Of a stretch of DNA of 47,133 nucleotides, positions 2,018 through 41,960 are shown piece by piece. The stretch comes from Planktothrix paucivesiculata PCC 9631. GTDB taxonomy: Bacteria > Cyanobacteriota > Cyanobacteriia > Cyanobacteriales > Microcoleaceae. Location: the NCBI RefSeq assembly GCF_900009265.2, contig NZ_LR735028.1:16084-63216 (forward strand), in the 5' to 3' direction. A program made the translations under genes and the position numbers. Each line of letters begins with the position of its first letter. The stretch's first letter is position 1. Under the pieces are notes generated by a model. That model was not told the DNA's origin. It was given only the letters and a program-made list of their open reading frames with translations, and did no database searches.

Positions 2018-3259
2018 ATGACAGATTGGACAGTGATTGAGGGTGGGGTGACTGCTCCTAGAGGGTATCGGGCATCGGGAATTACGGCGGGATTGAAAGC
2101 ATCAGGATTACCGGATTTAGCCTTAATTGTCTCTGATGTAGATGCGATCGCAGCAGGAGTATTTACCACCAGCCAAGTTAGAGCCGCCTGTGTGGATTAT
2201 TGCCGTCAACAACTGCAAGCCAAACCCAGTGCCAAAGCCATTTTATGTAATTCAGGACAAGCTAATGCCGCCACGGGATCAGCCGGTTGGACAGATGCGG
2301 TAGACTCTGCCCAAGCCTTAGCCGGAGTCTTAAATATTGCACCGGAATCGATTTTACTGGCTTCTACCGGAGTCATTGGTCAACGGATTAAAATGGATAT
2401 CCTCAAGGCAGGAATTCCCAAGTTAGTCGAGGAATTGTCAGAAAATGGTAACGCGGCGGTAGCCAAAGCGATCATGACCACGGATTTAGTCCCGAAAACC
2501 ATTGCCTTAGAAACCCTGTTTGGCGATCGCCCTGTGAGAGTGGGGGGAATTTGTAAAGGTTCGGGGATGATTCACCCCAATATGGCAACTATGTTAGCTT
2601 TTGTCACCTGCGATGCGGTGGTTTCCCCTCCCCTGTGGCAAGAAATGTTAAGCCGTGCCGCTAACCGGAGTTTTAATCAAGTTACCGTTGATGGCGATAC
2701 CAGCACCAATGATTGTTTAATCGCCTTGGCTAATGGGGCGTCTCGGACTCCCGCAATTACGGGTATGGGGCCAGAAGCCGAAAAATTAGAAGGGATGTTA
2801 ACGGCCGTTTGTGAATATTTGGCCAAAGCGATCGCCCGAGACGGAGAAGGAGCGACCTGTTTAATTGAGGTTCAGGTTTCCGGGGCGGAAGATGAAGCCT
2901 CAGCCTGTAAAGTGGCTAAAACCATTGTCGGTTCTTCTTTGGTGAAGTCCGCCATTTTTGGCAATGATCCCAACTGGGGAAGGATTGCGGCGGCCGCAGG
3001 CCGGGCGGGAGTCCATTTTGACCAGAATGATTTAGAAATCAAATTAGGGGATTTTGTTTTAATGCAGCAGGGTCAACCCCTAGCTTTTGATCGGAATCTG
3101 GCTAACGAGTATTTAAAACAAGCCAAAACAGGAGAATATCTCAAAGAAGATACGGTATTAATTTCAGTTAAAATCGGCAACGGCTCCGGCGTGGGCAAAG
3201 CCTGGGGATGCGATTTAAGTTATGACTATGTAAAAATTAACGCGGAATACACCACTTAA
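2018..3259 (+). CDS. argJ: Bifunctional glutamate N-acetyltransferase / ornithine acetyltransferase
   Basis: ArgJ makes N-acetylglutamate and recycles the acetyl group from N-acetylornithine in arginine synthesis. The 413-residue protein has the family length and the autoprocessing motif KGSGMIHPNMATML: the precursor splits between Ala190 and Thr191, and Thr191 becomes the catalytic nucleophile of the beta subunit. GNDPNWGRI near the C-terminus is another ArgJ signature. The ATG at 2018 is chosen because AAGGGG lies just upstream at 2008-2013 and because MTDWTVIEGGVTAP matches the usual N-terminus; an in-frame GTG farther upstream (1985) would add 11 unlikely residues. Several HIP1 octamers lie inside the gene. 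It is monocistronic and followed by repeats. Confidence 0.96.
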   Translation: MTDWTVIEGGVTAPRGYRASGITAGLKASGLPDLALIVSDVDAIAAGVFTTSQVRAACVDYCRQQLQAKPSAKAILCNSGQANAATGSAGWTDAVDSAQALAGVLNIAPESILLASTGVIGQRIKMDILKAGIPKLVEELSENGNAAVAKAIMTTDLVPKTIALETLFGDRPVRVGGICKGSGMIHPNMATMLAFVTCDAVVSPPLWQEMLSRAANRSFNQVTVDGDTSTNDCLIALANGASRTPAITGMGPEAEKLEGMLTAVCEYLAKAIARDGEGATCLIEVQVSGAEDEASACKVAKTIVGSSLVKSAIFGNDPNWGRIAAAAGRAGVHFDQNDLEIKLGDFVLMQQGQPLAFDRNLANEYLKQAKTGEYLKEDTVLISVKIGNGSGVGKAWGCDLSYDYVKINAEYTT

Positions 3260-3271
3260 TCAGTGATCAGT

Positions 3272-3322
3272 GTAGAGACGTGCCTGAGCGCAGCGATGCC
3301 GTAGGCTATTGGCGCGTCTCTG
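3272..3322. repeat. GTAGAGACG...CGTCTCTGC inverted repeat
   Basis: A dispersed repeat whose ends (GTAGAGACGTGCC and GGCGCGTCTCTGC) are near-complementary. Relatives occur at 31570-31597, a compact 28-bp palindromic form, and at 34388-34411, a degenerate form. The copy here has an extra internal segment of about 25 bases. Confidence 0.6.
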
Positions 3323-3327
3323 CCATG

Positions 3328-3352
3328 ACTGATTACTGATTACTGATTACTG
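3328..3352. repeat. Heptamer tandem repeat (ACTGATT x3)
   Basis: Three tandem copies of ACTGATT plus a partial unit, a cyanobacterial short tandemly repeated (STRR-type) array. It overlaps the 3' end of the minus-strand tyrosine-kinase gene: the last sense codons (T-V-I-S-N-Q) and the stop codon at 3333-3335 are read out of the repeat. Confidence 0.8.
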
Positions 3353-5621
3353 TTTCCTGTTCATATTGTGGTTCTAAGTTAACTAAAGAGGGTGTTAGGT
3401 AAAAGGGATAAGTGATAGAAGAATTAAGCTGAATATGATTAACAATTAAGCCAATACAAGGCATTCGATAAGTATTAAGTTGATCTAAAGTTTCCTGAAA
3501 AACTGTTTTATGAGTCTTATGAACAGTGGCGACTAAAATTAAACCATCCAAATGTTCCGCCAAAAATATACCATCGGTATATTCATGTAATTCTGGAGTG
3601 TCATAAATCACTAAATCATAACTATCTTGAAGGGTTTCGATCACTTTTTGCATTTGTTCTGAACCCAATAATTTAAAGGTATTAGCGTAGGGAACTCCGG
3701 CTGTTAAAACAAATAGAGTTTCTGCCAAAGGTGTTCGCTGAATCACAGAACTTGGTGTATTTTTTCCCATTAATAAATCACTAAGTCCCTTTTGATTAGA
3801 TACTCCTAAAACCGTATGTAGTTGGGGATAACGTAAATTAGCATCTACTAACAAAACACGCTGCCCCATATTCGCAATTGTTTGAGCCAAATGCAAAGCA
3901 ATAGTTGATTTTCCATCCTTAGATTCGGCTGAACAAATGGCAATCGAACGAATTAAAGAATCAGCATATAAAAATCTAACATTAGCATAAACTTGATCAA
4001 AAGCACCCAAAAACTGAGCCATTTTTTCTAACATTCGGCGGTTTGATTTTGCCAATTTTGGACTTCTGAGATCAACAGAAACAGCAAAATTATTATGGCG
4101 AGGAATCTCCCCTAAAAGGGGAAATTGAATAATATCTTCCAAGTCCTCACGGGTATAAAAAATATTGCGGAATCGTTCTAATAAAAGTGATAATAAAACA
4201 CCCAAAGCCAGACCTGCACCCCCCACCATAATTAGCTTTTTCATCGGCCCCTCAGCTTCAGAAGAAACCGGTTTTCCTTTGGCATCCAAGAGAATACTAG
4301 GTTGAGAAATAACCTCCCAAGGAACGTTATTTTGAGCCGCTTCAATGCGTAATTTTTCTCGCTCGTCTAAAAATAAATTCAATCGTTTATTAGTTAAATC
4401 AAGTTGTTGTTGAATTTCAGTATATTGACGAACGACACCGGGAAATATTTGGGCTTGTTGATTTAAAGTATTCAATGTCTTATTTAACCCTTGTAGCCTA
4501 ACCTCTAAGGATTTCATTAGACTATTCGTATTCACCAGTTGTACAATCAAACTTTGACGAATTGAGGTTTGAAAAGCCATTACCGAAGAATTATTTTCTA
4601 ATTGTGAGGCTTTTTCTCCGAGAACTTTTTTATTTTCTGCTTCTAATAATTGGGATAAATTAGCCTGTTGTTCTTTTAATTGTTGAAGTTCTGGACTATT
4701 AGAATTAAAGGTGGCTGATTGAATCGCAATTTGAGTTTCGACCGCCATCAAACTATCTAATATTTGTTTGCGGAATGGACTTTCACTTAAGGCGGAAGCG
4801 GCAACTGCTTCCTCGGGATTCAGTGATAATTGTTCTTGAAGGTGTTGATATAAAACTTTCTGTTCTTCCAGTTGCCTTTCGGTTTCTTGACTCTGATTTT
4901 GTAAAGTCCGAATTTGTTCATATAAAGCCTGACCGCCTTGGGTTGGCTCTAATAATTCATACTCCTGTTGAATCTTTTCTAATCTACCTCTATATTCATC
5001 AACTCGTGTTTGCAATAAAGGCAGTTGTTCATCAATGAATTTAACCCCTTGACTAATCCGAGATTTCCGCTCATCCAAACTGTATTTTAAGTATTTTGCT
5101 TTAGCTTTCTCTAAAACAAATAGGATTTCTTTTTGGTCTTCTCCCTTATAGTTAACTTCTAAAATTTTAGTTCTATCCAGGGGGCTTTTACCATTGGATA
5201 CCCGTGCTAATTTTAATTTATCTGCCAAAGTTTCCGCCGTTATTTTAGGATAACGAGTTTGAACTTGTTTAGCAATATTATTTAAAACTTCGGGACTGGT
5301 TAAAATTAGAATTTGAGTCGGATAATCTAACGTAAAAAATTTGTCACTGACTTCTCCATCAGAACGAGTAAAGGTTAAAGGGTCTGATAGTTTTTGTTCA
5401 CTGGTAATCGGTTCAACTAGCAGTTGAAAGTTACCTTTATAAACCGAGGGTAACTCTGCTTTAATAAAAGGTAATCCAGCAATAGTGGTAATCCCTGTCA
5501 CCCCAATAATCAGAAATATCTTGCGTTTTAAGGTTCGCAGTAAGGGACGAATACCGGGACGGCTAGTTTTGGGTTCCGCTAGGGGTTGTTGATCTTCAAG
5601 AACTGCTATTTCTTGCTGCAT
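3333..5621 (-). CDS. Wzc-like polysaccharide copolymerase / bacterial tyrosine autokinase
   Basis: This 762-residue inner-membrane protein combines a Wzz chain-length domain with a BY-kinase domain. Such proteins control polymerisation and export of exopolysaccharide and are regulated by autophosphorylation. TM1 is at about 34-52 and TM2 at about 462-482; the periplasmic part between them is rich in coiled coil (about 200-265, 295-335, 370-430). The cytoplasmic kinase domain has Walker A SAESKDGKST (564-573), Walker A' VLLVDAN (589-595) and a Walker B-like LVIYDTPE. Only a few tyrosines lie near the C-terminus, not a dense Tyr cluster. The last seven codons, including the stop, derive from a heptamer repeat. 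It lies downstream of the Wza-like gene with a 208-base gap and probably works with it. Confidence 0.9.
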   Translation of the reverse strand: MQQEIAVLEDQQPLAEPKTSRPGIRPLLRTLKRKIFLIIGVTGITTIAGLPFIKAELPSVYKGNFQLLVEPITSEQKLSDPLTFTRSDGEVSDKFFTLDYPTQILILTSPEVLNNIAKQVQTRYPKITAETLADKLKLARVSNGKSPLDRTKILEVNYKGEDQKEILFVLEKAKAKYLKYSLDERKSRISQGVKFIDEQLPLLQTRVDEYRGRLEKIQQEYELLEPTQGGQALYEQIRTLQNQSQETERQLEEQKVLYQHLQEQLSLNPEEAVAASALSESPFRKQILDSLMAVETQIAIQSATFNSNSPELQQLKEQQANLSQLLEAENKKVLGEKASQLENNSSVMAFQTSIRQSLIVQLVNTNSLMKSLEVRLQGLNKTLNTLNQQAQIFPGVVRQYTEIQQQLDLTNKRLNLFLDEREKLRIEAAQNNVPWEVISQPSILLDAKGKPVSSEAEGPMKKLIMVGGAGLALGVLLSLLLERFRNIFYTREDLEDIIQFPLLGEIPRHNNFAVSVDLRSPKLAKSNRRMLEKMAQFLGAFDQVYANVRFLYADSLIRSIAICSAESKDGKSTIALHLAQTIANMGQRVLLVDANLRYPQLHTVLGVSNQKGLSDLLMGKNTPSSVIQRTPLAETLFVLTAGVPYANTFKLLGSEQMQKVIETLQDSYDLVIYDTPELHEYTDGIFLAEHLDGLILVATVHKTHKTVFQETLDQLNTYRMPCIGLIVNHIQLNSSITYPFYLTPSLVNLEPQYEQETVISNQ

Positions 5622-22845: not shown

Positions 22846-24144
22846 ATGAAAGCCAGGTATCGGTACAGAATCTACCCAACTAACCAACAAAAGAGGCTGA
22901 TGTCTCAATTGTTTGGCTGTTGTCGTGTAGTTTTTAACGATGCTTTAGCTTACTGTCAAGATCAACACCGTGCGGGTAATAAAAAACCTTCTAGCAGTGA
23001 ACTCTCTAAAAGACTTACAGAACTCAAGAAAACCGAGGAAAAAGAATGGTTGACAGAAGTTTCCTCTGTTCCTTTGCAACAGTCTTTGAGAGATTTAGAG
23101 CAGGCTTATTCCAACTTTTTTAAATCCTGTAAAGGACAAAGAAAAGGCAAAAAAGTTAAACCGCCTAGATTTAAGAAACGTAAATCCAAGCAATCAGCTA
23201 GATTTACCGATAATGGGTTTAAACTCTATCCTGATTCTCATTACATTCACCTAGCTAAAATAGGTGATATCAACGTAATCTGGAGTAGAGAATTACCCGC
23301 AATTCCTTCTAGTGTCACCCTAATCAAAGATAGTGCTGATAGATATTTTGTCAGCTTTGTGGTTGAGTTTAATCCTAAACAATTACTCAAGAATGGACAA
23401 AGTGTAGGAATTGACTTAGGCATCACTGATTTTGCTACACTAAGCAACGGTGAAAAAGTTAAATCACCTAAACCTTTAAAGAAACAATTAAAGCGTTTAA
23501 AAAAATTACAGCGCAATTTATCAAGGAAACAAAAGGGTAGTAAAAGAAGGGAGATTGCTAGAAAGAAATTAGCTAAACTTCACGTTAAAATTTCTGATAC
23601 CAGAAATGATTTTTTGCACGAACTGTCAACTAAGATTATTCGTGAAAATCAAACAATAGTCTTAGAAGATTTGAATGTGTCAGGAATGATCAAAAACAGA
23701 AAATTATCTCGCGCTATTTCTGATTTAGGCTGGCGTAGTTTTAGAACTATGTTAGAGGCTAAGTCAGTCATGTACGGGCGTGATTTTCAAGTGATTGAGA
23801 GATGGATTCCTACTTCTCAAATTTGCTCTTGTTGTGGTTTTCACAGTGGCAAAAAAGAGCTAAATATTAGAGAGTGGATTTGTTTAAATTGCGGTACATC
23901 TCACGATCGTGATGTTAATGCCGCAGTAAATATTTTAGCCTGCACTGAGCCCCATTCGACCCCGCTCATGGCAGGCTTCGACTGCGTTCAGGAGAACCCA
24001 GGTCGAATTGTCGCCGGAGGGCTTTCGGAGACTTTAAACGGACGTGGAGGCAGACATAAGACTACCGCTAAGGTAGCAGTAGCCAGCGAAGCGTCAACCC
24101 ACCCAGCATTTCAGCAGCTATCAATTTTTGATCTGCTTAAATAG
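22846..24144 (+). CDS. tnpB: TnpB RNA-guided nuclease (IS200/IS605-type), stand-alone
   Basis: A 432-residue TnpB. The N-terminal RYRIYPTNQQK motif and HTH part are followed by the split RuvC nuclease: D190 in GIDLGITDFA, E274 in IVLEDLNVSGM, and the HDRDVNAAVNIL motif with D354/D356. The zinc ribbon has C327-x2-C330 and C346-x2-C349. All catalytic and zinc residues are present, so the protein is probably active as an RNA-guided nuclease that uses an RNA from its 3' region. No tnpA is in the window, so the element would depend on a TnpA in trans. A palindromic-repeat-like segment (about 23948-23995) contributes residues after NAAVNIL in the C-terminal tail. Confidence 0.93.
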   Translation: MKARYRYRIYPTNQQKRLMSQLFGCCRVVFNDALAYCQDQHRAGNKKPSSSELSKRLTELKKTEEKEWLTEVSSVPLQQSLRDLEQAYSNFFKSCKGQRKGKKVKPPRFKKRKSKQSARFTDNGFKLYPDSHYIHLAKIGDINVIWSRELPAIPSSVTLIKDSADRYFVSFVVEFNPKQLLKNGQSVGIDLGITDFATLSNGEKVKSPKPLKKQLKRLKKLQRNLSRKQKGSKRREIARKKLAKLHVKISDTRNDFLHELSTKIIRENQTIVLEDLNVSGMIKNRKLSRAISDLGWRSFRTMLEAKSVMYGRDFQVIERWIPTSQICSCCGFHSGKKELNIREWICLNCGTSHDRDVNAAVNILACTEPHSTPLMAGFDCVQENPGRIVAGGLSETLNGRGGRHKTTAKVAVASEASTHPAFQQLSIFDLLK

Positions 24145-28015: not shown

Positions 28016-28087
<72 letters not shown>

Positions 28088-28099
28088 TAAAACATTTAC

Positions 28100-28140
28100 C
28101 AGTCATGCCATTCATCAACCAACAGTGAATGACATGACTG
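28100..28140. terminator. 15-bp stem-loop after tRNA-Lys
   Basis: CAGTCATGCCATTCA (28100-28114) pairs with TGAATGACATGACTG (28126-28140) with one mismatch and an 11-base loop. It lies between tRNA-Lys and the convergent EVE-DUF262-HNH gene. No T-run follows on either strand, so a terminator or processing role is plausible but unproven; it could also mark a mobile-element edge. Confidence 0.5.
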
Positions 28141-28178
28141 ATAATGACTTATGTTCAGCATTCGCAGTATATGATTTT

Positions 28179-29918
28179 TTAATGTTCTCGTTGCAAATTG
28201 CATTGACGATGCACTAAACGAGCATTTTCTGGAATAGTCTTACCGCCTCGCCAGTAATGTTTTTCATGATCGAGAGCAGCATCATTAATTAAGGTAATGC
28301 GCTGATTACAAATTTTGCAAGTTGGGTCTTGTCGATAAATTTCTTCTTTCAACTGGCGGGAAAATACTCGTTGCGAGTCATTAGGATATGTAACCTTCAT
28401 CACTTCAGCTAATCGTTGTTTCCACGTTGAAAATGAGTAATCAATTCTTTGAATATCTCCTGTTGAAGTTTTAACACAATCCACCCATTTTTCATCTGTA
28501 CTAATTAAATCTAAATATTCCTCATAAATTAGATCAGAAGCACGGGTTAAAGCACCTAAATCATAATCGGCAAATGAAACAGTAAGAACTTGAAAAATAG
28601 AAGCATTAAGCTGTGTTGACCAACTTCCTCTTTCTGTTCTTAATCGAAAGGCTTGAATTCCGAAAATAGTATAAGCTGCTTTCATTGATTTTTTAAAAGT
28701 CTCTCTAAATTCGTTAAGTTTGTCTGCGCCTGGATTTCGATAAGCTTGTAGAAACTCATTTAAAAAATTCTTCATTCCTTTTCGAGCATTCCTATAATTC
28801 ATTTGTAAGAAAGCCAAGTATCGTAAAACTAAACCTCGATCTTTCATGCGTTTATCCAAATTTTTTTGATTAACACAAGCTAAAAATTCATCTGATTTAG
28901 CCAGTTTTCGGATTAAGTCATTTAATTGACCTCGATAGAGACAGTTCCTAATTTCCATGTCATTCAAAACAATACCACCCGTATTCAAACGTTCAAAAAT
29001 TAAAAATTTTAGGTTCTTGTCTGTATCCTTGGGCAGTTCAAAGGCTCTCATGGTAGAATCTTCTAAATTGTTTTGATCTTTTTGAGGAAGTTGATTAAAC
29101 TTATGCCCATTAAATTGCCGTAAGCTTTCTAATCCTCGAAGCGCGTATTCATTATCAAAAAAATTAAAAATAGATGTTAACCTTTGTAACCCATCAATAA
29201 CTTCACGGGCTCCTTCTTCATTAGATGCTAAATAAATAACTGGGACAGGTAAACCAATTAAAAATGATTCAATTAATCGAGACGCTTTTTTCAAATCCCA
29301 AACATATTCGCGTTGCCATTCAGGAGCAATAATTAAGCTTCCTCTTTTATACCATCTATGATATTCTGATAAACTGCGATCGCTTTTATCTAAAGATACA
29401 CTTTGAGGTTCTACAACAATATCTCCTTCCTCATTACCCTCAAGATCAACTTCTTCAGATTGACGAGATGGTATTATAGATTCAGTACCATTAATTAATT
29501 GTTTTACTCTTTCCCATTGATCGAGGGTAACTGCATAGTTTGTTGATTGAGGTTGGCGAATTACCATCAATTCTTTTAAAATATCGTCTTCTTTAACTTG
29601 GTTTCTGAGAATCGGATTATTAACCAATTTGTTGGTAAACTGAATAATTGCAAAGGTTAGATTTTTATCTTTAATTCTTCTTTCCTGATCAATCCAGTAA
29701 TCTTCATCAGGAAAATTATTAATCGCTTGAGGGAGTTCAAGGATTTTTGCAATAGCATAAATTCCTGAATCTTGGCCTGATATCCAAATTAATACACCAT
29801 CACCAACAGACATTTGATTAGCAAATCGATTGACTAACCAAGGCATTTGTTCTAAATCTTGGATAGCATCAAGGATTCTGTAATACTTAGGGTTACTTTG
29901 AAATAGCCAATAAGCCAT
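28179..29918 (-). CDS. EVE-DUF262-HNH fusion, putative modification-dependent nuclease
   Basis: A 579-residue single-gene defence candidate. Residues 1-140 form an EVE (PUA-like) domain (YWLFQSNPKYYRI, then VGDGVLIWISGQDSGIYAIAKI), a fold that reads modified bases. Residues about 185-330 are DUF262 with PEWQREYVWD (199-208) and the ParB-like DGLQR nucleotide-binding motif (242-246, DGQQR in relatives). The C-terminus is an HNH nuclease: C534-x2-C537, DH at 550-551, N565 and H570-x2-C573. GmrSD-type type IV enzymes pair DUF262 with an HNH-type DUF1524; here one protein adds a base-reading domain. The start is supported by GAGGAG just upstream. It lies beside tRNA-Lys, and AT-rich octamer repeats precede it. 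Restriction of modified phage DNA is inference. Confidence 0.88.
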   Translation of the reverse strand: MAYWLFQSNPKYYRILDAIQDLEQMPWLVNRFANQMSVGDGVLIWISGQDSGIYAIAKILELPQAINNFPDEDYWIDQERRIKDKNLTFAIIQFTNKLVNNPILRNQVKEDDILKELMVIRQPQSTNYAVTLDQWERVKQLINGTESIIPSRQSEEVDLEGNEEGDIVVEPQSVSLDKSDRSLSEYHRWYKRGSLIIAPEWQREYVWDLKKASRLIESFLIGLPVPVIYLASNEEGAREVIDGLQRLTSIFNFFDNEYALRGLESLRQFNGHKFNQLPQKDQNNLEDSTMRAFELPKDTDKNLKFLIFERLNTGGIVLNDMEIRNCLYRGQLNDLIRKLAKSDEFLACVNQKNLDKRMKDRGLVLRYLAFLQMNYRNARKGMKNFLNEFLQAYRNPGADKLNEFRETFKKSMKAAYTIFGIQAFRLRTERGSWSTQLNASIFQVLTVSFADYDLGALTRASDLIYEEYLDLISTDEKWVDCVKTSTGDIQRIDYSFSTWKQRLAEVMKVTYPNDSQRVFSRQLKEEIYRQDPTCKICNQRITLINDAALDHEKHYWRGGKTIPENARLVHRQCNLQREH

Positions 29919-29940
29919 TGACTGCTCCTCTTATTTTTTA

Positions 29941-29963
29941 TATTTTTATATTTTTATATTTTA
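29941..29963. repeat. AT-rich octamer repeat (TATTTTTA) upstream of the EVE gene
   Basis: Two perfect copies of TATTTTTA and a third one base shorter lie 23-45 bases upstream of the start codon of the EVE-DUF262-HNH gene, in the position of its promoter/leader. Copy number changes could alter promoter spacing. Confidence 0.6.
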
Positions 29964-29975
29964 TATTAATCGGAG

Positions 29976-29990
29976 TCAGCCCTTTAGGGC
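29976..29990. repeat. Short palindromic repeat (AGCCCTTTAGGGCTT)
   Basis: A second copy of the palindrome found at 1843-1857, here in the divergent region between the EVE gene and the aldolase gene. Confidence 0.55.
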
Positions 29991-30048
29991 TTAATATTAT
30001 GGTGTGATAACGAGCGATCGCAGAATTGCCAAAAGCCAACAGTGATAC

Positions 30049-30077
30049 TTGACAAAAGTAACATTATGTCATATAAG
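30049..30077 (+). promoter_or_regulatory. Strong sigma-70-type promoter for the aldolase gene
   Basis: A perfect TTGACA (30049-30054) and TATAAG (30072-30077) are separated by exactly 17 bases. Transcription would begin near 30084, leaving a leader of about 275 bases before the aldolase ATG. A second TTGACA at 30247-30252 has no good -10 box at the right distance. Confidence 0.7.
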
Positions 30078-30180
30078 AAAGTTCAAAACCGATACGAGCC
30101 AACAATATCAATGGTTGTAAGCTTTTCTGGGCTTAACTTAGAGTGATTTTGAAGTTCCTTACCTGTAGCCATGGGATTGA

Positions 30181-30358: not shown

Positions 30359-31438
30359 ATGGCGCTCGTACCCATGCGGCTTTTGCTAGATCATGCGGCT
30401 GAAAATGATTATGGACTTCCTGCATACAATGTGAATAACATGGAGCAGATCCAAGCCATTATGCAGGCTGCTCAAGAAACTAATAGCCCTGTGATCTTGC
30501 AAGCTTCTCGCGGCGCTCGTCAATATGCTGGTGAAAGCTTCCTGCGCCACCTGATTTTAGCGGCGGTGGAAACCTATCCCAACATCCCCATTGCCATGCA
30601 CCAAGACCACGGCAACTCCCCCGCCACCTGCTATTCTGCCATGCGTCATGGCTTTACTAGCGTGATGATGGATGGTTCCCTGGAAGCCGATGGTAAAACC
30701 CCCGCCAGCTTTGAATATAACGTGGCTGTCACCTTGGAAGTGGTGAAAGTGGCTCACTCCATTGGGGTTAGCGTTGAAGGCGAACTGGGTTGTTTAGGTT
30801 CCCTGGAAACCATGCAAGGTGACAAAGAAGATGGTCACGGTGCAGAAGGGAAATTGACCATGGAACAGTTGTTAACTGACCCTGACCAAGCCGTTGAATT
30901 CGTAGAACGTACCCAAGTAGATGCTTTAGCGATCGCTATTGGAACCAGTCACGGCGCTTACAAATTCACCCGGAAACCGACCGGAGAAATTCTGGCTATT
31001 AGCCGTATTGAAGAAATTCACCGCCGTTTACCGAATACTCATTTGGTCATGCACGGTTCTTCTTCTGTTCCCGAAGATTTGTTAGAAATCATCAACAAAT
31101 ACGGCGGTCAGATCCCTGAAACCTACGGTGTTCCTGTGGAAGAAATCCAAAAAGGAATTAAGAGCGGTGTCCGTAAAGTTAATATTGATACTGACAACCG
31201 TTTAGCGATTACCGCAGCCTTCCGGGAAGCGGCTTTCTCAGATCCTTCTAACTTTGATCCTCGTCACTTCCTGAAACCTTCTATTAAATATATGAAGAAA
31301 GTTTGTGCGGATCGTTATAATCAATTTGGTTCTGCGGGTAATGCAGATAAGATCAAAGTTCAAACTTTAGATGAGTTTGCCGCTAAATACGCTAAAGGTC
31401 AATTGAGCGCTACTACTAAAACAACTGTTGCCGTTTAA
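30359..31438 (+). CDS. fba: Class II fructose-bisphosphate aldolase, Calvin-cycle subtype
   Basis: A zinc-dependent aldolase acting on fructose-1,6- and sedoheptulose-1,7-bisphosphate in the Calvin cycle and glycolysis. The 359-residue protein has the [18 protein letters not shown] start, the metal site HQDH (81-84), [11 protein letters not shown] with the catalytic Glu, [12 protein letters not shown] with a metal His, VMHGSSSVP with the third metal His, and [14 protein letters not shown] for phosphate binding. The length and the KFTRKPTG segment fit the CbbA subtype. An AGGAGG site lies 8 bases upstream of the ATG. Strong codon use, a consensus promoter and a clean terminator indicate high expression. 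Confidence 0.97.
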
Positions 31439-39941: not shown

Positions 39942-41885
39942 TTAAAGTTGTTGTAATTTTTGATAACGACCTAACGCTAACAAGGGAAAATAATGTTGAT
40001 AGTAATGATATTTGATATAAAAATGACCCGGGAATCCAGTTCCCGTAAATTCCGATTCATCCCAGCGACCATCAGCTAGTTGGGTTGAAATTAAATAGTT
40101 AATTCCCCTTGGAATTGCCTCCAGTTTATCAGATTCCGTTGCCATTAACCCAATTAACGCCCAAGCCGTTTGTGATGGGGTACTAACGCCCTTTCCTTTC
40201 AATTTGGGGTCATTATAACTCTGGCAAGTTTCCCCCCAACCTCCATCAATATTTTGACAACTGACTAACCAATTTGCCCCCCTTTCTATTAAGGGGTTAA
40301 GAGAAGTATAACCCCAATTTTTATAAATCGGATTAATTACTGCTAAAGCTGATAATACTCCACTGGTTCCATAAATATAATTAACTCCCCAACGCCCGAA
40401 CCAACTCCCATCGGTTTCTTGTTCCTGTTTCAAATAGGAAATCGCCCGTTCAATTGAGGGTTTTAAAGATTGAATTTTCAATTGAAATTCTGAGGAATTA
40501 GGATCTAATTCTCCTAACATTTCAATCACTCTCGCTGTAACATCGGCCGTATTCGGATCAATCATGGCTTTTAAATCCCCATAGGGAACCGCATTAATCC
40601 AATCCTGATCATTATCCATGTCAAAAGCAGCCCAACCTCCGGGTTTACACTGCATTGAGAGCATCCAATCAATCCCTCTAATCATTGTTGCTATTTTCAA
40701 GGATTCATCAGCAATTTTAGCTTGATTTAATGCCATAACTACCACAGCAGAATCATCTAAATCAGGATAAAATCGATTCACAAATTCAAACGCCCACCCC
40801 CCAGGTTTTCCCCGTTTATTTTTAATTGTCCAATCTCCATAATCTAAAATTTGTTGACGAATTAACCATTCTGAACTTTGCATAATAGCAGAATGATTAG
40901 AGGTAATTCCTGATTCAATTAAAGCTCGAATTACCCAAGCTGTATCCCAAACTGGAGATATACAGGCTTGCATCCGATAACTTTCTTCTGTTTCTATGGC
41001 AAAATTATCTATAGCTTTTAAACCCCGTTGAATAATCGGATCAAATACCGGATAATCTAAGCATTTTAAGGCTAATAAAGAATTTAACATAGCCGGAATA
41101 ATTCCAGCCCAATCTCCAGTAACTTCTTGTCGTTCTAAAATCCATTTTTCTGCCGCTTGTAACCCGGCTTCTCGTAAGGGAACAAGATTAAAATTTTCGG
41201 CAAGTTTAAAAATATTATCTAACTCGATAAATATATCTGTCCAATCATTATTTTTAGACAGTTCAAAGATAGCATTTTCTCGTCCTTCTACATATAATTC
41301 ATCTAAATTAATACTAGAATCGAATCGAAATACAGGTTTTTTATCAAATACAATTAATAGAGGAACCGTACTACTTCTAGCCCAACTAGACATTTCATAA
41401 ATCGTAAAGGGAGAACCTTCGGGTAACAACATAATCCCAGGGGGAATTGAGGGAATCCCGCGCCAATCATAACATCCAATCAAGGCTAAATGTAGTTTTG
41501 TAAAAATCCGAGTTTTGGTAATTCCTCCCCGTTCTAAAATGAATTGTTTGGCTTTAATTAAAGCATAATCTGTTTCAGATACCCCCAATATTTTTAATGC
41601 CATATAGGCTTCAACGGTGGTACTCAGTTCCCCTCCATCCCCATAGAATAATTCCCAACCCCCATGATCTCGTTGTTGGGAACGTAGGTAGGTTTCGGCT
41701 TTAGATAAAGGGCGAGTTTTATCGGTTCCCCAAATCTTGTGTAAAAGGATAATTTCTGATATGATCGTGACATTAGATTCTAATTCAGCCCACCAATAAC
41801 CTTCGGGATATTGTTGAGATAAAAGAAAGTTTTGGCTGGCTGCGATCGCATCTTTTAATTGAGTTACAGAGATTTTATTTTCCAT
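39942..41885 (-). CDS. shc: Squalene-hopene cyclase
   Basis: This enzyme cyclises squalene to hopene/hopanol, the first committed step to hopanoids, at the membrane. The 647-residue protein has the family length. The catalytic DXDD motif is D375-L-D377-D378 (in DLDDSAVVV). Several QW repeats are visible (for example QQYPEGYWWAELES, SQQRDHGGWELFYGD, MQCKPGGWAAFD, KQEQETDGSWFGRWG, CQNIDGGWGE, TQLADGRWDE). The N-terminus has SVTQLKDAIAASQNFLL. The ATG at 41885 (MENKISV) is taken; an upstream ATG at 41909 is also possible, and neither has a clear ribosome-binding site. It is divergent from the DUF4160-DUF2442-hpnB operon. Confidence 0.96.
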   Translation of the reverse strand: MENKISVTQLKDAIAASQNFLLSQQYPEGYWWAELESNVTIISEIILLHKIWGTDKTRPLSKAETYLRSQQRDHGGWELFYGDGGELSTTVEAYMALKILGVSETDYALIKAKQFILERGGITKTRIFTKLHLALIGCYDWRGIPSIPPGIMLLPEGSPFTIYEMSSWARSSTVPLLIVFDKKPVFRFDSSINLDELYVEGRENAIFELSKNNDWTDIFIELDNIFKLAENFNLVPLREAGLQAAEKWILERQEVTGDWAGIIPAMLNSLLALKCLDYPVFDPIIQRGLKAIDNFAIETEESYRMQACISPVWDTAWVIRALIESGITSNHSAIMQSSEWLIRQQILDYGDWTIKNKRGKPGGWAFEFVNRFYPDLDDSAVVVMALNQAKIADESLKIATMIRGIDWMLSMQCKPGGWAAFDMDNDQDWINAVPYGDLKAMIDPNTADVTARVIEMLGELDPNSSEFQLKIQSLKPSIERAISYLKQEQETDGSWFGRWGVNYIYGTSGVLSALAVINPIYKNWGYTSLNPLIERGANWLVSCQNIDGGWGETCQSYNDPKLKGKGVSTPSQTAWALIGLMATESDKLEAIPRGINYLISTQLADGRWDESEFTGTGFPGHFYIKYHYYQHYFPLLALGRYQKLQQL

Positions 41886-41960
41886 TTTTATTGTTTTTGA
41901 GGATATCATTTTTTAAATGGGTTATAGACATTCTATCATATTTTTTATTGAATTAATCGG

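Follow-up and report, generated by a model that had tools for sequence, protein, structure and literature searches.

Domain organization of EDH

The stretch analyzed here, called the window, comprises 47,133 nucleotides of Planktothrix paucivesiculata PCC 9631 (contig NZ_LR735028.1, positions 16,084 to 63,216). On its minus strand, at 28179..29918 (window positions, as throughout), it carries a 579-residue gene, found as an open reading frame (ORF) and by domain scan, whose product combines an EVE domain, a DUF262 domain and an HNH nuclease. This gene, named EDH, has as neighbours a tRNA-Lys gene, an aldose epimerase gene and an aldolase-like gene. Its product starts with the EVE domain (residues 1-142; 29493..29918), where W27, Y74 and Y128 make up a candidate aromatic pocket. 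It continues with a linker of low model confidence (143-170, 29409..29492; predicted local distance difference test, pLDDT, <50 at 145-155) and the ParB/Srx-like DUF262 domain (171-340; 28899..29408), which contains the motifs D242-G-L-Q-R246 and FERLNTGG (308-315). A helical middle region, defined by the secondary structure of the predicted model (341-520; 28359..28898), and the C-terminal HNH nuclease (521-579 plus stop; 28179..28358) complete the chain, all on the minus strand. GAGGAG, which reads like a ribosome-binding site, lies 6 nt ahead of the ATG (29925..29930, minus strand).

A preliminary description of this DNA had proposed an N-terminal EVE domain, a DUF262 domain with a nucleotide motif and an intact HNH nuclease in a single-gene layout, and our results agree with it on all these points. 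In a structure search, the N-terminus of the predicted EDH model matches EVE structures; the VIA-align rows of the whole model cover almost solely residues 1-149, and those of a core-only model parts of the core, so that absences from them carry no weight. The domain scan then gives DUF262 (GmrSD_N, PF03235, 2.1e-28), followed by the C-terminal HNH, and no companion genes stand beside EDH. The best hidden Markov model (HMM) match is PADLOC NsnA (4.1e-95, residues 155-508), a model that stops short of the HNH, covers most of the helical region, and also matches 18/18 rows of the alignment described below. NsnA is presumably the DUF262 part of Menshen; a literature search on NsnA returned nothing relevant among the matches listed, and an NCBIfam scan of EDH gave nothing exceeding a family cut-off.

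The alignment comprises the window protein, its orthologues from three congeners and from Cuspidothrix, and 13 EVE-less homologues; four of the 18 loci from the GTDB and viral scans were excluded from it (L106 and L108, cut; L107, with a different C-terminus; L110, a remnant). GmrSD_N and PF01844 are found in all 18 rows and EVE in five, while DUF1524 (PF07510) is found in none at E <=0.01. Every HNH residue is invariant, as are D, G, Q and R in D-G-x-Q-R, whose third position is L in 16 rows, as in the window protein, and Q in two. Within the EVE domain, W27 and Y74 are invariant in 17/17 EVE rows. A profile alignment places them opposite W26 and Y82 of 2eve, residues given for this structure in the VcaM4I report (PMC7897488), and a single-sequence alignment pairs residue 76 with Y82; from such alignments it is likely, rather than certain, that Y74 is the counterpart of Y82. 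All 17 rows have Y or F at residue 128, which might, at a guess, be equivalent to Y130 of VcaM4I, an EVE-HNH enzyme considered below.

Origin of the fusion

The trees and alignments indicate how EDH was assembled. Twelve stand-alone cyanobacterial EVE proteins (140-143 residues) share 48-58% identity with its EVE part, and trees of the core and of EVE, both rooted for drawing only, each place the fusions in a single group (100/99 and 98/97, respectively). Their closest core relatives are EVE-less proteins from a Synechococcus and from a viral contig (85/80, core tree). Behind the EVE domain, the EEGDI stretch of EDH (163-167) aligns with an acidic, DEGDL/DEGEL-like N-terminal stretch present in 12 of the 13 EVE-less homologues (L111 lacks it); the junction is therefore placed just before EEGDI, a complete enzyme having been joined behind a complete EVE domain. 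On this sequence evidence, EDH is one derived fusion of a cyanobacterial EVE with a complete DUF262-HNH enzyme known without EVE from several phyla.

No separate precursor pair was found: across 21 core loci, EVE matches the Cuspidothrix fusion only, and no core adjoins the stand-alone EVE gene at any of 12 loci, flanks being short at several loci and the EVE profile being cyanobacterial, so that distant EVE genes could escape. Two EVE-less cores adjoin SMC_N/AAA_23 ATPase genes that are LmuB-like in PADLOC (L096 7631-10084 and L109 844-3240), and at L096 an FRG-domain gene also adjoins the core. At the Poribacteria locus L107 (6019-7527), DUF262 is kept and the HNH is replaced by a C-terminus without Pfam match.

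Distribution

The preliminary description had suggested searching genomes for the same domain order; the whole chain occurs in four of the ten genomes of the genus and in Cuspidothrix. The genus carriers are G000 (the window genome), G002, G003 and G009, the three congeners being 94-96% identical to the window protein; no full-length match is among those listed, ranked by E-value, for the other genomes of the same 98-genome search, for which the query was the whole protein. These genome samples overlap with those that follow. Among 386 phylum-wide genomes, at least four of them from the genus, the window genome alone has a full-length match at E <=1e-30, and among 388 genomes of the order (E <=1e-70) the same four are full-length and three more have the core only; the order-wide core relatives L112-L114 are 445-453 residues long and lack EVE. 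In the family that includes G142, one of 217 genomes, G696, has a full-length match, and the GTDB scan gives Cuspidothrix issatschenkoi L094, full-length at 70% identity; we take G696 to be L094 because gene length and identity agree. As EDH is intact in five species, an assembly or annotation artefact was rejected.

Apart from L094 and the remnant L110, 15 of the 17 loci of the GTDB scan match partly or from residue 118-163 on. They belong to Planctomycetota, Tepidiformaceae (Chloroflexota), Hydrogenedentota, Pseudomonadota, Nitrospira, Acidobacteria, Poribacteria, a Synechococcus, Bdellovibrionaceae (a fragment) and the archaeon Methanocalculus. One further core locus, L111, is on a viral contig, and none of the plasmid and phage records has a single place covering 80% of the query.

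The tRNA-Lys/fba site

EDH occupies a variable site, which in the genus is an exchange hotspot. Its left edge is the tRNA-Lys gene (ttt; 28016..28087, plus strand) and its right edge the aldolase-like gene (30359..31438, plus strand; 91-97% in relatives), presumably fba and so called below. The variable segment is 28089..30148. In G000, G002, G003 and G009, EDH lies between these two edges, accompanied in G003 by a DUF433/DUF5615 pair, which we take to be of toxin-antitoxin type. The site is empty in G007, where homology ends at the tRNA end and restarts at 30149, about 27 bp standing in place of the segment. In G006 (L067), a 117 bp remnant of the EDH 3' end (94%; 4738-4854) is found together with a gene for a 757-residue protein (2360-4633) that matches PADLOC 'Helicase' (7.6e-76) and, weakly, 'NERD+UvrD' (3e-10), which suggests that one gene was replaced by another at the same site. 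G008 combines a pair near-identical to the G003 one with genes for a TnpB-like and a PIN protein, and G004 has a 422-residue protein without Pfam match. A relative of the latter is split in two ORFs in G001 (L063), where the tRNA-Lys and fba parts are about 1.7 Mb apart, so that a rearrangement must have broken at the hotspot. G005 (73% complete, with a masked stretch) was left out of this comparison. In Cuspidothrix, an AbiEii relative precedes EDH.

The proposal of a mobile gene next to a tRNA thus holds as far as the variable site and its swapped genes are concerned, and not for tRNA-directed integration: the tRNA end does not recur as a direct repeat of 9 nt or longer, and no ORF read here stood out as an integrase. 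Site-specific integration is therefore less likely than exchange through the flanks, which is probably the route used. The interval from tRNA-Lys to the EDH 3' end holds an imperfect inverted repeat (28100..28140; 15-nt arms, 14 matching, 11-nt loop) that gives no terminator call; the terminator scan of this interval found none, and promoter-like sites there are not above shuffles.

EDH is under purifying selection in the four genus genomes: over their six pairs, the ratio of nonsynonymous (dN) to synonymous (dS) substitution rates lies at 0.14-0.24 over the gene as a whole and at 0.03-0.12 over the 142 EVE codons. In the same pairs, dS is lower for EDH (0.11-0.16) than for fba next to it (0.23-0.42), a difference that points to recent interspecies transfer. 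Identity between the window and Cuspidothrix proteins is 62.6% for EVE, 78.2% for DUF262, 75.0% for the helical part and 72.9% for HNH.

Elsewhere in the window, a 432-residue TnpB-like protein (OrfB_IS605 and Cas12f1-like_TNB; 22846-24144, plus strand) is encoded about 4 kb before the hotspot, on the strand of the tRNA. A 655-residue ORF (39942-41909, minus strand) reads by eye like, and is presumably, a squalene-hopene cyclase.

Relation to known systems

The preliminary description had compared EDH to GmrSD-type enzymes and considered its N-terminal EVE the unusual part of a poorly described system. The likeness to GmrSD holds for the DUF262/GmrSD_N domain and fails for the nuclease, which is a PF01844 HNH and not the DUF1524 of GmrD. 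As far as the available texts show, the type IV enzymes GmrSD and BrxU have DUF1524 (PF07510) and no N-terminal EVE (PMC4619093, PMC8565348). The additional domains given in the available part of the 2015 GmrSD survey are DUF4268, DUF4357 and DNA_binding_1, which lie C-terminally in the alignment (PMC4619093). Without DUF1524, EDH is outside strict GmrSD. The arrangement is indeed rare, but it is in print: fusions of EVE to GmrSD homologues were noted as rare and predicted to be modification-dependent restriction enzymes (Bell, Wolf and Koonin 2020, PMC7641849), in a single sentence which, in the text available, names no member, phylum or nuclease type. EDH is like these fusions, with its nuclease identified as PF01844 HNH and its origin traced. 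That sentence is the sole direct mention of EVE with DUF262 or GmrSD among the matches listed from the open-licence literature, none of which, in the text available, describes a characterised case; the accessible parts of PMC12707154, PMC11090510, PMC12839542 and PMC8281217 name no such protein.

VcaM4I, an EVE-HNH enzyme of 309 residues, flips 5-methylcytosine (5mC) or 5-hydroxymethylcytosine (5hmC) into an EVE pocket containing P24, W82 and Y130, and its EVE and linker block DNA binding by the nuclease, according to the available text of PMC7897488. EDH appears to share with the VcaM4I class an N-terminal EVE with a base pocket; as far as that text goes, VcaM4I lacks the DUF262 nucleotide gate, whereas EDH has DUF262 and a helical region between EVE and HNH, where the VcaM4I class has a helical linker and lacks an NTPase domain. 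In SspE, recognition of the mark leads to GTP hydrolysis, which licenses the HNH (PMC13251355), and in DndI ATPase activity depends on the R of D-G-Q-Q-R, and nicking on the Asn of the HNH (PMC11662687). From the accessible parts of these reports, both have a DUF1524-type HNH, respond to a phosphorothioate mark and lack EVE, unlike EDH. NsnA differs from EDH in another way, as EDH matches its HMM and has no companion genes. EDH combines known parts in an uncommon way and is not a new kind of system; it fits neither GmrSD, by the DUF1524 criterion, nor the simple EVE-HNH class, on account of DUF262, and probably works like both.

DNA modification in the carriers

Matches to C5-cytosine methyltransferases (PF00145, E <=1e-10, some of them fragments) were counted in ten genomes: carriers have 8 (G000), 11 (G002), 14 (G003), 10 (G009) and 5 (G696), and the other genomes 10 (G001), 8 (G004), 9 (G006), 8 (G007) and 8 (G008). 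Modification-dependent enzymes are described as non-toxic in hosts with unmodified DNA, without accompanying methyltransferases (PMC7897488, in the text available). The methyltransferases of the carriers therefore imply that EDH ignores plain 5mC, reads 5mC in a limited context or is restrained on self DNA, and cutting at any 5mC is unlikely.

One solitary C5-methyltransferase family is present in 4/4 genus carriers and in G006, which holds the EDH remnant, vs 0/4 of the other near-complete congeners (G001, G004, G007, G008), and Cuspidothrix has a 57% relative. This family was chosen afterwards among 19 clusters (88/91 matches clustered, three small fragments dropped, G005 excluded) and is found in 38/98 relatives, carriers included, and in 32/217 genomes of the G142/G696 family. 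Moreover, the copy of the window genome (L204 5822-7098) ends early, before a transposase-like ORF, the orthologues of four congeners being longer. Co-occurrence of EDH with this family is weak. DndC (TIGR03183) is above cut-off in 5/5 carriers; as it is in 86/98 relatives and 10/10 genomes of the genus, an association of EDH with phosphorothioation was rejected, phosphorothioation genes looking near-universal in the 98 related genomes. None adjoins EDH, DndC being the only one sought. Neither the solitary methyltransferase nor DndC supports a dedicated partner of EDH.

Possible function of EDH

EDH is probably a mobile gene for a defence enzyme, to judge from its domains and its site. We consider it a single-protein, modification-dependent, nucleotide-gated defence nuclease with a probability of about 0.6, on the basis of its sequence and predicted model. 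The EVE domain would flip and bind a modified base of invading DNA, this binding would alter nucleotide binding or hydrolysis in DUF262, and the HNH would thereby be freed to nick or cut DNA, by analogy with the recognise-hydrolyse-activate cycle of SspE. As the EVE joined an enzyme that exists elsewhere without it, it most likely adds or narrows specificity. Because the carriers have several C5-methyltransferases, EDH probably responds to a modification that is bulkier or rarer, such as 5hmC or a glucosylated or otherwise hypermodified base, or to 5mC within a limited context, rather than to 5mC at large.

Several observations weigh against a modification-dependent, nucleotide-gated defence nuclease. 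The PF01844 match of the window protein is slightly under the Pfam cut-off, and D-G-L-Q-R departs at its third position from the published D-G-Q-Q-R. With a core-only model, Foldseek gives no PDB match at E <=0.001, the best being BrxU (1.9e-3) and SspE (2.7e-3). The 5-14 C5-methyltransferase matches per carrier would be harmful if plain 5mC triggered cutting, EVE-class folds include RNA readers (YTH structures, in the structure search of the EDH model), and some core relatives may belong to multi-gene systems, since an SMC-like ATPase gene adjoins two or more of the 13 homologues that lack EVE.

The DUF262-HNH core could alternatively be the whole active enzyme, with DUF262 reading the trigger and EVE as an accessory DNA-binding or regulatory domain, in line with the 13/18 rows that keep DUF262 and HNH without EVE and with SspE and DndI, which in the texts available sense their mark without it; the strong constraint on the EVE codons and the invariance of W27 and Y74 make this rather unlikely. 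We regard as somewhat less probable still that EVE reads host 5mC, or DUF262 host phosphorothioate, as a self mark, unmarked DNA being damaged in the manner of SspE and DndI, which use a host mark (PMC13251355, PMC11662687, as far as their available texts go). The many C5-methyltransferases, the pattern of the solitary family in the genus and DndC in all carriers would fit, yet that family is common without EDH, was picked post hoc and ends early in the window genome, and DndC shows no association. A two-input version, in which the host's cytosine methylation, read by EVE, would serve as licence or brake and DUF262-HNH would cut unmarked DNA, is a long shot. Most improbable of all is that EDH acts on RNA, or is a nuclease with a selfish or housekeeping role in place of defence; this reading could draw on the RNA readers among EVE/PUA-like folds and on the position next to a tRNA, but DUF262 relatives are defence proteins (PADLOC match; PMC10952713, in the text available), presence is patchy with other genes swapped in at the site, and no housekeeping operon is conserved.

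If the two-input version were true, EDH would be the 5mC-licensed counterpart of the phosphorothioate-licensed SspE and DndI, reached through one cyanobacterial fusion. To our knowledge, few members of the large group of DUF262 proteins are characterised. In EDH, a ready-made DUF262-HNH enzyme has gained a separate base reader, for which the EVE-less homologues, that of Synechococcus BO 8801 among them, are natural controls; exchange or removal of the EVE offers a direct test of how DUF262 proteins link sensing with nucleotide gating. Finally, a carrier that survives with 5-14 C5-methyltransferase genes makes the self/non-self question of modification-dependent enzymes testable.
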